Assembly: GCA_019636515.1 (NCBI GenBank)
Contig: JAHBXI010000002.1
Location: 434,001 to 498,000 of the forward strand
Origin: Phycisphaeraceae bacterium
GTDB taxonomy: Bacteria > Planctomycetota > Phycisphaerae > Phycisphaerales > UBA1924
DNA: 64,000 nt
Direction: 5' to 3'
Of the stretch, positions 2-6,722 are shown piece by piece (position 1 is the first letter of the stretch; every line of letters starts with the position of its first letter). Position numbers and translations under genes: made by a program. The notes below the pieces were generated by a model. The model made no database searches, had not been told where the DNA came from, and saw only the letters and a program-made list of their open reading frames with translations.

Positions 2-3000
2 GCGCCCGGGCGCGATCTTCAGTTCAAGATCATCGCCCTGAAGAACGCGAGGGTGACGGATATCCAGGCGACGGTGCGGAACCTCGCGGAGGAATTGCAG
101 TGGCAAAGGTCCAGCGCTCCCGGGGCGCGGCCCGCCGACCAGGGGGTCGAGACGCTGTCGGTCGACTTCAACGAGCGGACCAACAGCGTGGTGGTGATGG
201 GACAGGGCGATGGGGTGGTCGCGGTCGAGCGGCTGATCGCCGCGCTGGACATCCCCGACGCGGCGCGGACGGCGATGGTCGTCAAGGGGGTATCGATCGA
301 GAAGGCGGATCCGACGGCGGTGAGGCAGGCGGTCGAGCGGGCGATGGCAAACCCCAACTGGCGGCCGTGGCGCGGGGCCGACCCCGACGCGGTGACGGTG
401 ATTGCCGACGCCCGCCGCCGTGGTCTGGTGCTGGTCGGCCGCGAGGAGCGTGTGGACCAGGCGATGGCGTACGTGAAGGAACTCGATTCGGTGTCGGAGC
501 AGGCGGATCGGCGGGTCGTGACGATCACGCTGGAGCACGCCCGGGCGGACCGTGCGGCGGCCTCCATCTCTCAGTTCATGCGGGGGTGGATCGCCAGCCA
601 GGGCCGTCCGGCGGACGCGGGTCCTTCGGTGATCGGCTCATCGGACGGGAACGTGCTGATCGTCTCGGGCGATGAGGCGGAGTTGAAGGCGATCGGCGAC
701 ATCGTGGCGCAGATCGACCAGCCGGGCCTGAACCAGGGCCGGCGGATCGAGGTGTACCTGTTGCGCAACGCGCCCGCGCCCGACACGGCGGCGACGCTGC
801 GCTCGGTGCTGGCGCGGGGTCGGCAGGGTGACGAGCAGGCGACGGTGACGACGCAGGCGAGCACGAACTCGGTGATCGTGTCGGCTCCGGAGGCGATGTT
901 CGACCAGATCGACGCGCTGGTAAAGACTCTCGACGCGGCCCCGACGGCGGAGGCGAACAACCTGGTGACCGTGCCGCTCAAGACGGCGCGGGCGGCGGAG
1001 GTGGCGGCGGCGCTGCGGGCCGCGATGCCTCCGGGTCTGAAACTGACGGTGACGCCGGTGGCGAGGAGCAACTCGCTGCTGCTGTCGGGTTCGAACGACG
1101 CGATCACGGTGGTTCTTGGGCACGTGGCGAAACTCGACGAGGAACCCTCGCGCACGCTCGACGTCTTCCGTCGCGTCGCGGTGGTCCATGTCCCGGCCGA
1201 CGAGGTGGAGTTCACGATCGGGCAGGTGCTTCGGGCACGGGCTCGGGCGTCGAACGAGCCGGCGCCGACGCTGGAATCCTCGCGGACGGACAACTCTCTG
1301 CTGGTGTGGGCGGCCTCGGACCAGATCGACCAGGTCGAGGAGATGATCCGTCAACTCGACCAGCCGGCGAACGCGACACGGCGGACGGAGTTCGTGAAGG
1401 TCGAGTACGCCGATGCCGAGCAGGTCGGCAAGGCGCTGCGGATGTTCTACGGCCGCTTTGCCCCGGAAGCCTCGACTCCGGGGGCGAGGAACGTCACGGT
1501 CGTGCCCGACCGCGGGTCGAACTCGCTGATCATCAGCGCCGACGAGGCCGAATGGTCCGGCATCCGTGAACTGGTCGAGAAACTCGACGACAAGCAGTAC
1601 GACACGTCGCGACAACTGGCGGTCATCGCGTTGTCGCACGCCGACGCGGCGAGCGTGGCCCGGGCGATCAACGAGGGATTCCGGACGCCGCTGCTCGACG
1701 CGGTCAACCGTGCCCGGCAGGAGCGAACCGGCCGCCCGGGGGCTCGTCCCGACGAGCGCCCGATCACCGGGGTGGACGGCATCGTGCTCGAGGGTGAGAA
1801 CATCCCCGCGGTCTCGGCCGAGCCGCAGACCAACGCGCTGGTGGTCTTTGCGGCGCTGCGTGACCTCGAACGCATACGGGACGTGGTGAGCCAACTGGAT
1901 GTCCCCGGGTTTGCGAACCTCCCCGAGCCACGGATCATCCCGATCACCGGGGGCGGACGGCCTTCGCTGATCGCCCAGACGCTGCGGGACATGTTCACCG
2001 GCTCGAGGACCGGCCAGGCCGGGGCGACGCCGACGGGCCCGAGAGCCGTGATGATCGCGGGCCTCGACGACTCGGCGGCGATCATCGTCCGCGCGGACGA
2101 GTCGCAGTTCGCGCAGATCAAGGCGCTGGCGGACACGCTCCAGCAGCAGGGCCGGGTGAACCAACTCGCCCCGACGGTCGTGCGGGTCGTCCACGTCCCG
2201 GCGGCGCGGCTTCGGCAGACGCTGATGGCCACGTTCACGCCGATTGCGCAGAACCTCGGCGAGACCTTCGCGGTGGAGGCGGACCGTGGCAGCAATTCAC
2301 TGGTTATCGCCGGCTCGGAGCGTCTTCGGGAGGAGATCCGTCGGGTGATCTCGGAACTGGATCAATCGGCGTTCGGAGCGGAGGAGGCGGCGGGTGACTC
2401 GACGACGCGGCTGGGCCAATCGGTGTTCATCGTGGACGTGACGAACAACGCCCCGGAGGATGTGCGGAGGGTGTTGATCGAGATGGGGCTTGACCGGCCG
2501 CAGGCCGCCGACCGTCCCGGCGTGGTGAACGACCCGGTGACGGTGACCGCGCTGAAGAGCCGCCGGGCGCTGGCCGTGATGTCCAATCCGGGCGATTCGG
2601 CGGCGGTGATCGAGTTGATCAAGGCGATCGACGCCGCCCCGATGGAGCCCGATCAGCGTGTCGCGGTGGTCGGACTGAAATTGGCCACCGCCCAGACCGT
2701 CGTGGTGACGCTCGAAGCGATGCTCGCGTCCGAGCAGAAGGCCTCGGGGTCTGGTCCCGCTCGGGCGCTGGCCGAGCAGGTCCGGCGGCTGAGCCTGCTG
2801 GGAAACGGCGTTGATGCCAAGCCTCTGACGGTCGATCTGTCGCGCCCGATCCGGCTGATCGCCGACTCGGAGAGCAACAGCGTGCTGATCGCCTCGACGC
2901 CGGCGAACGTGGAGGCGCTGCGCGAGGTTGTCCGCATGCTCGACGCGCTGCCGATGGGAGACGCGGTCGTGGTGCGGATCTTCCCTCTGCAGAACGCGAC

Positions 3001-6000
3001 GGCTTCGAGGGTGAAGACGATCGTGGACCAGTTGTTCCAGCAGGGCGAGGCGTTGCGGCGGCTGCCCGGGACGCGTCGGCAGGGCCTTCCGACGACGGCG
3101 ACGGGGCAGGCACTGGCGGGTGAGATCGCCACGGCGATCGACGACCGGACGAACACGATGATCGTGGCCGGACGCGAGGAGGCGGTCGCCCTGGTCGAGG
3201 TGCTGATCCGGCAGATCGACTCGGACGAGGCGTCGAAGTGGATCGAGCCGGCGATCGTGCCGCTCCGCCACGCGGACGCGGTGGCCATGAGCCGGAGGCT
3301 CCGCGAGGTGCTGGTGGCCGGCTTTGCGACGACCCCCGAGGCGATGGGCATCCAGAAGCAGTTCGGCCGCCTGCGGATGATCGCGCGTGGCGGGGATCCG
3401 GCCGACCCCGGCTCACGGATCGAGGCGGATCTGTTCGCCCCTCTGTCGGGGCTGGTCATCACGCCCGACGAAGCACTCAACGCGCTGATCGTCGTGGGAA
3501 CGCCGACCAACATCGGCGTGGTGCGGGAACTTGCCGGGCAACTCGATGTCGAGGCCGCGGCGGCGGCGAACCAGGTGCGGGTCTTCGCCCTCGAACATGC
3601 CGCGGCGGACCGGGTGGCTCAGATCGTCCAGGGGGTCTTCCAGCAGCGTGAGCGCGACGGGCAGATCCGTCCCGAGGACCGTCTCATCATCGCCGCCGAT
3701 GTCCGGACCAACTCGCTTATCGTCACGTCGAGCCCCCGGAGTTTTGCCATCCTTGAGGGCCTGCTCAAGACCCTCGACGGGGACCGTGCCAACTTCTCCG
3801 TCGGGCTGCACGTGATCCCCGTCTCCGAGGCGGACGTCCGGGCGCTGGCCCCCAAGATCGAGAAACTCATGCGGGAGCGGATCGACGCGTCGAGGCGGAC
3901 CGGGTCGGTCGCCAACCCGTCGGACGTCTTCAGCGTCGAGGCCGAGCCGACGAACAACCTGCTGATCGTCGCGGCCAGCGAGGAGAACCTTCAACTCGTC
4001 CGTGAATTGCTCGCCGCGCTGACCGCCGACGCGACGCGCGTCGCCGGGTCGGCCCGGATCGAGATCATCTCCCTGCTCAAGTCGTCGGCGACCGACGCCG
4101 CGTCGCAGATCCGGCAGATGTACGTCGAGAAGGAGGTTGAGCGGCGAGGCGCCGGGTCGGTCTCGGTGATCGCCAACGAGCGTCTCAACGCGCTGGTGGT
4201 GACCGGGACCGAGCAGGACATCGCGGAGGTGCGGGGCCTGGTGGCCAGGCTCGAGAGCACGCAAGTCACGGCGGTCCGGCAGATCAAGCGAATCGAACTC
4301 CGCAGCGCCAACGCCCTGGAGATGGTCAACCTGCTGGAGAACCTCCTGGCGGGCAGGCCCGTGAGCGGGCGGGCCCTGGGCGGACGCCAGGCGACCCGGC
4401 TGAGTTTCCTGGGCGCGTCGCTCCGGGCGCTTCCCGACGGGTCAACGCTGCGGGAGGCGGAAATCGACGGGGCGATTCGTGACCAGGTCACGCTGACGCC
4501 GGATCTGAGGTCCAACTCGGTGCTTGTGAACGCCCCTCCGGAGATGCTCGCCCTGATCGAGGAGATCGTGCGCGACATCGACGCGACGGCGGCGGGGGCG
4601 CGGCGGATCGAGAAATTCCAGTTGCGCAACGCCGACGCCCGGGCCATGGCGGAACTGCTGCGCGACACCTTCCGCCTCCAGCAGCAGGGCAACGCGTTCA
4701 TTCTCGTTCCGCCGCGTGCCTCGGACCAGCCGGCGGTCGAGGGATCCACCCCGGGACCCGCGGAGCCGGCGGCGTCGTTCGCGGGGACCACCGTGACACC
4801 GGTGCCCGACGAGCGCCAGCAGTTGTCGATCGCGATCGACTCGCGGACCAACACGCTCATCGTCTCGGGAACCGAGGAGTACATCGAACTGGTGCGATCT
4901 CTGGTCAACGACCTTGACGGTGTCGAGGCCAACGAGCGGATCCAGTCCGTGTACCACCTGCGCAACGCCAAGGCCAAGGAAATCGAGACCACGCTCCAGG
5001 CGTACTTCCTGGCGGACAACCAGAAGTTCCGGGCCACCCTCGGGCCGAACAACATCGGATCCGTCGCCCGGATGCTCGAGCAGGAGGTGACGGTGGTCGG
5101 GGACGAGAAGAGCAACCGGCTGGTGATCTCGACGTCCCCGCGCTACATCGAGCGGGTCATGCGGATCGTTGAGGAACTGGACTCCTCGCCGCCGCAGGTC
5201 ATGATCCAGGTCCTGCTGGCCGAGGTGACGATCGACAACGAGCAGACATGGGCCGCGAACCTGAACGTGGGTCCGTTTGGCGGGGACAACTACCGCCTCA
5301 GCACGCTGGGGGCCGGGTCGGGGGTCGCCACGGCGCTGGGCGTGCCGAACCTGAGCGTGTCGAGCGCGGATTTCAGCCTTCTGATCCGGGCGCTCGAGGC
5401 GCAGGGCAAACTCGAGGTGCTGAGCGAGCCCAAGGTGATGGTCAACAACAACACCGAGGCGAGGTTCCAGGTGGGTGACGACATCTCGATCGCGACCAAC
5501 GTCGAGATCACCCCCCAGGGCGGCACCCGGTCGAGCGTGACACGCCGCGAGGTGGGCATCATCCTCAACGTCACGCCTTCCATCAACGCCGACGGGTTCG
5601 TCCGCCTGGAGATCGCCCCGGAGATTTCGACAGTGACCGACCGGACCACGCAGATCAGCGAGGATTTCTCGGCTCCGATCATCCGAAAGCGGACCCTCTC
5701 GACCAACGTGACCGTCAAGGACGGGCAGAGCGTTGTGATCGGCGGGTTGCTCCAGAACACCGACGAGTTGCGCAAGACCAAGATCCCGCTCCTGGGAGAT
5801 GTCCCGCTGGTGGGTGAGTTGTTCAAGAGCCGGACGAACAAGACCATCAAGACCGAACTGATGGTGATCGTGACCCCGCGGGTTATTCCCGGCCAGAGCG
5901 GCGGGGGATACTGGTCCAGCGGCGAGGAAGTGCAGCGGATCATCACCGAGCAGTCCACGCATCGCCTCAGCGATCCCACGACGGTGCGTGAGTACATGTG

Positions 6001-6166
6001 GAAGGTGGACGGGAATTTTCCCGAGCACCCGGCGAGCCAGCGGATTCCCGCCAACCCTTCGGCGAGCACACCCGGACCCGGCGCCATGCGTCCCCCGGAC
6101 GACGAGACGGCGCCGGCCGTCGAGCCGACCCCCGCCAACCGCGCCGCCCCCCGCCGGAGGTGGTGA
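2..6166 (+). CDS. Giant multi-N-domain secretin (GspD/PilQ superfamily), 5' end missing
   Basis: Outer-membrane secretin channel of a type II secretion or type IV pilus type machine. The reading frame is open to the first base of the window, and the residues encoded there already look like an N-domain, so the true start lies upstream. The C-terminal secretin domain is clear (about residues 1715-1950, counting from the GTG at 53): 'VLSEPKVMVNNNTEA', 'VGIILNVTPSI', 'VIGGLLQNTDELRKTKIPLL' and 'ELMVIVTPRVI'. Before it I count about 20 copies of the N1-type half-motif 'TNSLIV...I..LI..LD', spaced about 87 residues apart. Classical GspD has an N0 plus three such domains. A proline-rich tail of about 85 residues follows the channel domain. 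Family assignment is secure; which machine it serves is not shown, since no other secretion gene is adjacent. Confidence 0.93.
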   Translation, partial: APGRDLQFKIIALKNARVTDIQATVRNLAEELQWQRSSAPGARPADQGVETLSVDFNERTNSVVVMGQGDGVVAVERLIAALDIPDAARTAMVVKGVSIEKADPTAVRQAVERAMANPNWRPWRGADPDAVTVIADARRRGLVLVGREERVDQAMAYVKELDSVSEQADRRVVTITLEHARADRAAASISQFMRGWIASQGRPADAGPSVIGSSDGNVLIVSGDEAELKAIGDIVAQIDQPGLNQGRRIEVYLLRNAPAPDTAATLRSVLARGRQGDEQATVTTQASTNSVIVSAPEAMFDQIDALVKTLDAAPTAEANNLVTVPLKTARAAEVAAALRAAMPPGLKLTVTPVARSNSLLLSGSNDAITVVLGHVAKLDEEPSRTLDVFRRVAVVHVPADEVEFTIGQVLRARARASNEPAPTLESSRTDNSLLVWAASDQIDQVEEMIRQLDQPANATRRTEFVKVEYADAEQVGKALRMFYGRFAPEASTPGARNVTVVPDRGSNSLIISADEAEWSGIRELVEKLDDKQYDTSRQLAVIALSHADAASVARAINEGFRTPLLDAVNRARQERTGRPGARPDERPITGVDGIVLEGENIPAVSAEPQTNALVVFAALRDLERIRDVVSQLDVPGFANLPEPRIIPITGGGRPSLIAQTLRDMFTGSRTGQAGATPTGPRAVMIAGLDDSAAIIVRADESQFAQIKALADTLQQQGRVNQLAPTVVRVVHVPAARLRQTLMATFTPIAQNLGETFAVEADRGSNSLVIAGSERLREEIRRVISELDQSAFGAEEAAGDSTTRLGQSVFIVDVTNNAPEDVRRVLIEMGLDRPQAADRPGVVNDPVTVTALKSRRALAVMSNPGDSAAVIELIKAIDAAPMEPDQRVAVVGLKLATAQTVVVTLEAMLASEQKASGSGPARALAEQVRRLSLLGNGVDAKPLTVDLSRPIRLIADSESNSVLIASTPANVEALREVVRMLDALPMGDAVVVRIFPLQNATASRVKTIVDQLFQQGEALRRLPGTRRQGLPTTATGQALAGEIATAIDDRTNTMIVAGREEAVALVEVLIRQIDSDEASKWIEPAIVPLRHADAVAMSRRLREVLVAGFATTPEAMGIQKQFGRLRMIARGGDPADPGSRIEADLFAPLSGLVITPDEALNALIVVGTPTNIGVVRELAGQLDVEAAAAANQVRVFALEHAAADRVAQIVQGVFQQRERDGQIRPEDRLIIAADVRTNSLIVTSSPRSFAILEGLLKTLDGDRANFSVGLHVIPVSEADVRALAPKIEKLMRERIDASRRTGSVANPSDVFSVEAEPTNNLLIVAASEENLQLVRELLAALTADATRVAGSARIEIISLLKSSATDAASQIRQMYVEKEVERRGAGSVSVIANERLNALVVTGTEQDIAEVRGLVARLESTQVTAVRQIKRIELRSANALEMVNLLENLLAGRPVSGRALGGRQATRLSFLGASLRALPDGSTLREAEIDGAIRDQVTLTPDLRSNSVLVNAPPEMLALIEEIVRDIDATAAGARRIEKFQLRNADARAMAELLRDTFRLQQQGNAFILVPPRASDQPAVEGSTPGPAEPAASFAGTTVTPVPDERQQLSIAIDSRTNTLIVSGTEEYIELVRSLVNDLDGVEANERIQSVYHLRNAKAKEIETTLQAYFLADNQKFRATLGPNNIGSVARMLEQEVTVVGDEKSNRLVISTSPRYIERVMRIVEELDSSPPQVMIQVLLAEVTIDNEQTWAANLNVGPFGGDNYRLSTLGAGSGVATALGVPNLSVSSADFSLLIRALEAQGKLEVLSEPKVMVNNNTEARFQVGDDISIATNVEITPQGGTRSSVTRREVGIILNVTPSINADGFVRLEIAPEISTVTDRTTQISEDFSAPIIRKRTLSTNVTVKDGQSVVIGGLLQNTDELRKTKIPLLGDVPLVGELFKSRTNKTIKTELMVIVTPRVIPGQSGGGYWSSGEEVQRIITEQSTHRLSDPTTVREYMWKVDGNFPEHPASQRIPANPSASTPGPGAMRPPDDETAPAVEPTPANRAAPRRRW

Positions 6167-6209: not shown

Positions 6210-6722
6210 ATGCCGCGATTGACCATGACATACCTGGCGGCGGCGGGGCTCGTGGCCGCGGCCATCGGGCCGGCCGCGTGCGAATCGTCGTCGGGTCGCA
6301 TCAAGCCGCTGGTTTCGCAGCCCGCCTGGGTGCGGCCGACGAGCATCGTCCTGAACGTCGAGCAGCCCGAGGACCGCAATTCCGACGGGTACGACGACAC
6401 GATCTTCGTCACGGTGTATGTCTTCGACGCCGACTTTCGCTCGCAGTCGATCCGGGTTGAGGGCACGTACGTGTTCGCGCTGGTCGACGCCGACGGCCTG
6501 GTGGCGCTTGACTGGGAAGTCCCGCCGGAGGTCGTGCGCGACGGGTACCGCATCGAGGCACCGGGGCCGATGCTCCGTCTGCGACTGACGATTCCCCAGG
6601 ATCGCGTCATGGAACTCGGGGGATATCCGTTCACGCTTCTGGCACGGCTGACCACCAGCGACGGGCAGGTCATCGAGAGCAGCGGTGGTTCCTCGTTCTC
6701 CCTTCGCCAAAAAGGCCGCTGA
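6210..6722 (+). CDS. Small predicted lipoprotein downstream of the secretin
   Basis: 170-residue protein of unknown function. The N-terminus is a lipoprotein signal with a hydrophobic stretch of alanines and a lipobox ending in Cys24 ('GPAAC'). The mature part is predicted beta-rich and carries an acidic segment 'DRNSDGYDDT' that resembles a calcium-binding loop. ATG 6210 was chosen because it directly precedes the signal peptide and has GAGGA about 9 bases upstream; the frame is open further upstream but overlaps the secretin. It starts 43 bp after the secretin stop and probably shares its transcript. A pilotin or accessory role for the secretin is possible from position only; no pilotin family is recognised. 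Confidence 0.75.
   Translation: MPRLTMTYLAAAGLVAAAIGPAACESSSGRIKPLVSQPAWVRPTSIVLNVEQPEDRNSDGYDDTIFVTVYVFDADFRSQSIRVEGTYVFALVDADGLVALDWEVPPEVVRDGYRIEAPGPMLRLRLTIPQDRVMELGGYPFTLLARLTTSDGQVIESSGGSSFSLRQKGR

Follow-up and report, generated by a model that had tools for sequence, protein, structure and literature searches.

A giant GspD-type secretin with about fifty N-domains encoded in a Phycisphaeraceae genome

Does a secretin gene that runs off the edge of a planctomycete DNA stretch carry far more N-domains than the N0 plus three of GspD and, if so, what might such an array do? The stretch that was analysed, referred to here as the window, comprises 64,000 nucleotides (G000:C2:434001-498000) of the genome of a Phycisphaeraceae bacterium (3.39 Mb, 7 contigs). 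A sequence-only reading of it had described about 20 N1-type domains in front of a normal secretin pore, in a frame (2..6166, + strand) still open at the window edge. It had proposed either a very long periplasmic neck or a chain spanning an unusually wide planctomycete periplasm.

The complete gene and its N-domains

The frame is indeed truncated by the window, and it was completed from the upstream genome sequence. The whole gene runs from an ATG at G000:C2:425959 to a stop at 440166 and encodes 4,735 amino acids; the nearest upstream in-frame TGA lies at 425902, and the ATG is followed by what was judged by eye to be a typical signal peptide, MRRSRTIGSLSTRVFVSATLAAAAGLAVSVKHASA. The protein is composed of the signal peptide, a GspD-type N0, about 50 contiguous N1-type domains and a conventional secretin pore, the last being recognised by a single match to PF00263 (E 7.5e-49, residues 4478-4643). 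The features located within the window are given in Table 1.

Table 1. Positions of the 3' part of the giant gspD and of its downstream neighbour in the window
Feature	Position	Strand	Basis or remark
Giant gspD, 3' part (residues 2683-4735 of 4735)	2..6166	+	Gene start upstream of the window, G000:C2:425959
N1-type secretin domains 31-50 of ~50, 20 in a row	17..5218	+	Pfam and family profile
Five-domain stretch, five beta-alpha-beta-beta-alpha units	266..1408	+	AlphaFold2, mean pLDDT 83; best PDB matches T2SS secretins
Conventional secretin pore domain PF00263	5390..5887	+	Pfam
C-terminal tail, end proline-rich, varying between relatives	5888..6163	+	Comparison with relatives
Small predicted lipoprotein directly downstream of giant gspD	6210..6722	+	Lipobox judged by eye

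It had been suggested that the claim of many N-domains should be given up if profile searches recognised only three to five of them. Pfam Secretin_N (PF03958) recognised 45 stretches in the giant, and a six-frame search of the host genome gave more than 40 such places in its single frame, so that this attempt at refutation failed. A profile built from the family gave 51 hits, corresponding to 50 head-to-tail domains (residues 183-4420), one of which is split by an insert. The domains are 66-117 amino acids long with a mean spacing of ~85, and their junctions are tight; neighbouring domains overlap or abut, almost without linkers. The same profile gave 1-7 hits (mostly 3-4) in each ordinary secretin, 5 hits in 65 shuffled proteins and 1 in 13 reversed proteins, and with these last controls nearly empty, chance repeats were rejected. 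The 20 or so domains first noticed proved to be 20 complete ones (residues 2687-4420), less than half of an array that, at ~50, lies far above the complement of GspD. The split domain is number 25, upstream of the window; its long, proline-rich insert (residues ~2127-2240) is poorly conserved and partly low-complexity-like.

Could the giant be an assembly or frameshift artefact? The frame is uninterrupted over 14.2 kb, the repeats are too dissimilar among themselves for mis-assembly, and the domains are kept in other assemblies from independent projects, which was counted as already refuting an explanation whose probability is close to nil. The ~50-domain array is a genuine protein architecture.

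The fold of the array was modelled with AlphaFold2 on the five-domain piece listed in Table 1, as a single chain with an alignment of 33 sequences. The five units were clean, and the pTM was 0.48, a low value at which the domain-to-domain geometry is without confident prediction. Foldseek gave the T2SS secretins ExeD, GspD, EpsD, PulD and XcpQ as the best PDB matches of the model, and a profile comparison of the same piece returned mostly the same proteins. Unrelated folds between the N-domains were rejected, as Pfam, the family profile and AlphaFold2 all gave secretin N-domains. The Pfam search did not report PF21305 for the giant; the GspD-type N0 was recognised through the N-terminal model of a relative (L050), in which N0 and three N-domains match N0-N1-N2 of PulD and XcpQ (E ~1e-13). 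By these models, the array is made of true secretin N-domains, preceded by an N0 of the GspD type.

A type II secretion operon

The giant passed the TIGR02517 GspD equivalog with 1182.4 bits against a cut-off of 351.35, a total that is inflated by the repeats; its best stretch, residues 4200-4645, corresponds to profile positions 147-592 of 600. The PilQ and SctC models were likewise passed, with scores below that of TIGR02517. A type IV pilus secretin of the PilQ kind was disfavoured, since Pfam gave no AMIN domain hit in the giant and its neighbours are gsp genes. Because TIGR02517 was passed and a conserved gsp operon lies upstream, the giant was assigned as the GspD of a T2SS, and judged by sequence its membership of this family can be called secure.

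The upstream genes lie on the same strand in the order gspF, gspG, prepilin-like H/I/J, GspK-like, PilM/GspL-like and GspM-like, with the giant gspD last, and up to 11 of 12 relatives share this order. The gspG gene is over the cut-off of TIGR01710, and H/I/J/K/L/M are weak by profile yet stand in canonical order. The GspK-like gene gives weak helix-hairpin-helix matches; that GspK, GspL and GspM match curated models weakly or not at all counts against the reading preferred below, as does the fact that no GspC-like gene was noticed among the operon genes. A gspE with an MshEN domain is found nearby on the opposite strand (L007:8981-10660, -), and its product passed the NCBIfam model of an MshE-related cyclic-di-GMP-binding domain (53.4 vs 38 bits); from this sequence feature, the giant's T2SS may be controlled by c-di-GMP. 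Between gspE and gspF there is a glutathione-peroxidase/redoxin-like gene (L007:11753-12622, +), which is kept beside the operon in several relatives. On the 3' side of the giant, the small lipoprotein gene is followed by phosphate-uptake (pst) genes, which are only partly conserved in place. The lipoprotein gave no Pfam or NCBIfam match, and it is an unproven candidate member of the giant's T2SS.

In its N0, its N1-type, ring-building beta-alpha-beta-beta-alpha domains, its pore and its gspF-G-H-I-J-K-L-M operon, the giant resembles the known GspD proteins (PulD, XcpQ, ExeD, EpsD; TIGR02517). It differs from them in having ~50 N-domains instead of three (a number typical of GspD, not definitional) and 4,735 amino acids instead of ~600-700.

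Distribution and age of the array

In class Phycisphaerae, the C-terminal profile has a match at E 1e-60 in 154 of 248 genomes. Among the genomes listed, about 69, from many families, were counted by hand as having secretin open frames of at least 2,000 aa; the longest frame (G099:C18, loci L129 and L130) is 6,169 aa long and includes 63 N-domains. Family f19 has secretin forms of 1.5-1.8 kaa, and three genomes of the same order (G044, G048, G181) have secretins of 781-818 aa with 3 N-domains. At G050:C2:55605-57392, an in-frame TGA was seen within the profile match of a 3,109-aa relative. Matches in other Planctomycetota classes reach at most ~1.4 kaa. It was also asked whether the giant shows itself in the crateriform structures of Planctomycetia (PMC5394234), and nothing was found that links the two. 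In the pore region, the T2SS-type secretins of the other classes are among the short relatives closest to the giant; the one in which N-domains were counted (G503, 1,253 aa) has 7, unlike the giant. A plasmid search returned distant secretins only, below 31% identity.

Giants were also found in an order of Verrucomicrobiota, where 13 of 58 genomes carry secretin frames of at least 3,000 aa, with maxima of 5,155 aa and 56 N-domains; a further three look cut by contig ends. Giants of ~2,900-5,155 aa from Verrucomicrobiota were recorded at L088, L092, L100, L101, L103, L106-L109, L112 and L119 and in G776, and the L100 giant and L090 of Phycisphaeraceae are collinear at the level of single domains. 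The pore-domain tree clusters by phylum, its rooting being too weak to separate inheritance from transfer between Planctomycetota and Verrucomicrobiota. Two giants recorded under Leptolyngbya sp. PLA1 (L050) and Cyanobacteria bacterium CYA (L059) are nested inside Phycisphaerales in this tree; these records are probably mislabelled bins.

The occurrence of the operon was compared in 34 genomes picked according to whether they carry the giant. Its GspL was present in all 16 giant-bearing genomes (E 1.7e-53 or better), and in 9 same-family genomes without the giant the best match had an E of 1.7e-10. By this pattern, the giant serves one particular T2SS, whose gain or loss involves the whole unit.

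Twelve relatives have 31-53 N-domains by the family profile. Domain k of the host giant pairs best with domain k of those in G001, G013, G025 and G026 at all or nearly all of the 50 positions; exactly 50 domains are in register in five genomes, which belong to at least four genera. Inside one giant, the domains are mostly only ~25-37% alike. Between the host and G001, single domains are 54-91% identical and the differences at the three codon positions are 0.20/0.13/0.46 over 4,700 codons. Because 50 domains are in register across genera and resemble each other so little, the array is old and stable, and by these comparisons it is ordered and under purifying selection.

It has also to be asked whether repeats accreted in a neutral or ratchet-like manner, being retained after duplication without a length-specific role. 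Domains 9-11 resemble domains 14-16 with up to 46% identity, which points to a later duplication of a block; where a relative has fewer domains, they are missing in blocks of some four or five, and block loss or gain leads to numbers of 39, 41, 45, 46, 50, 52 and 53. These observations would fit accretion, which is nonetheless improbable in view of the fixed register over genera and the low similarity of most domains.

A proposed stacked tube and its alternatives

The reading preferred here, with moderate confidence, is that of an enlarged T2SS GspD whose ~50 N1-type domains are stacked as a periplasmic ring tube; the very long periplasmic neck of the sequence-only reading can reasonably be proposed from the domain organisation. 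About 12-15 giant subunits would assemble, with each N-domain position giving one ring, and the rings would stack into a tube leading from the outer-membrane pore to the inner-membrane platform (GspE/F/L/M). Folded exoproteins would enter the tube and be driven out by the GspG/H/I/J/K pseudopilus. As ring heights, 2.5 nm of GspD was used as the lower and 4 nm from T. thermophilus PilQ as the upper value; by extrapolation, 50 rings at ~2.5-4 nm would give a tube of ~125-200 nm and, with 15 subunits, an assembly close to 8 MDa. Since both the number and the order of the domains are kept from genus to genus, length itself probably matters, as in a fixed-length conduit or ruler, as opposed to loose repeat expansion. 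A bolder version is held tentatively, with doubt slightly outweighing belief: a fixed-length tube of ~50 rings, more than 100 nm long and of several MDa, would be the longest secretin conduit known, belonging to a dedicated T2SS of Phycisphaerae and some Verrucomicrobiota, and the number of its domains would serve as the ruler for a pseudopilus of great length or for a vestibule that takes many substrates.

Extra N-domains are found in PilQ of T. thermophilus, a secretin for type IV pili and DNA uptake, in which six rings (N0-N5) and the pore are 350 A (35 nm) long (PMC5745081, PMC4463427). The periplasm of this organism measures ~70 nm, and the authors called six rings an "unusual number" (PMC5745081, PMC4463427). 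As in the giant, there are additional domains, and in PilQ the extra rings lengthen the periplasmic part; the giant differs in having ~51 domains instead of six rings and an operon of the T2SS, not of a pilus.

An unusually wide periplasm, spanned by the chain, was weakened as a sufficient reason for the length. The host genome encodes four other secretins of ~880-1,120 aa with 0-4 N-domains, and it was on this ground that a wide periplasm was rejected as enough to explain long secretins. The GspD of its second T2SS (L125:10462-13113), with neighbours matching GspJ, GspK and PilN, is a T2SS secretin like the giant and differs by its 884 aa and its GspD_N0 plus 4 N-domains. Because both T2SS of the host face one envelope, the width of the envelope alone does not demand 50 domains. 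The reason lost further ground with the same-family members that lack both giant and operon and with the giants of Verrucomicrobiota. The giant and the short GspD may differ in where in the cell, or in which phase of it, they are used. The host genome also carries a 1,123-aa secretin (L128:6015-9383, in G000:C2:67000-85000) with a pore and no N-domain recognised by these profiles.

The short GspD in the same cell counts against the tube too, in that a long tube would be no general need of the envelope. Further points against it are that it would call for a pseudopilus of far more than the usual length and that the modelled domain-to-domain geometry carries little confidence. The same low pTM, together with the periplasm of P. 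limnophila, which is variable and much enlarged by invagination (PMC5394234), would suit N-domains that form a flexible tether, like beads on a string. Only the pore-adjacent domains and the far-end N0 would then build rings, and the rest would keep pore and platform linked while the width of the periplasm varies. A plain tether needs no ~50 folded ring-building units in fixed order under purifying selection, and tight junctions almost without linkers do not favour it; it is rather unlikely, and is at the same time the likeliest of the tether, processing and accretion alternatives. Processing would mean that a precursor is proteolysed to a pore of conventional size with few N-domains, the rest of the array working separately. 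Indirectly, the insert in domain 25 would allow this, as a possible place of cleavage or hinge; domain number and order on either side of the insert are conserved together, and such processing is thought very unlikely.

No published description of giant secretins was found in a search of open-licence papers. Secretin vestibules have been described with three to six rings, and the giant array, which belongs to a widespread bacterial class, is roughly tenfold longer and evolutionarily fixed. It would mean either that conduits spanning the envelope reach a new scale or that N-domains have some role other than lining a short vestibule. How pore and platform are coupled across an enlarged periplasm becomes testable, with the short GspD of the same cell as an internal control and the relatives with 31-63 domains as a natural length series.
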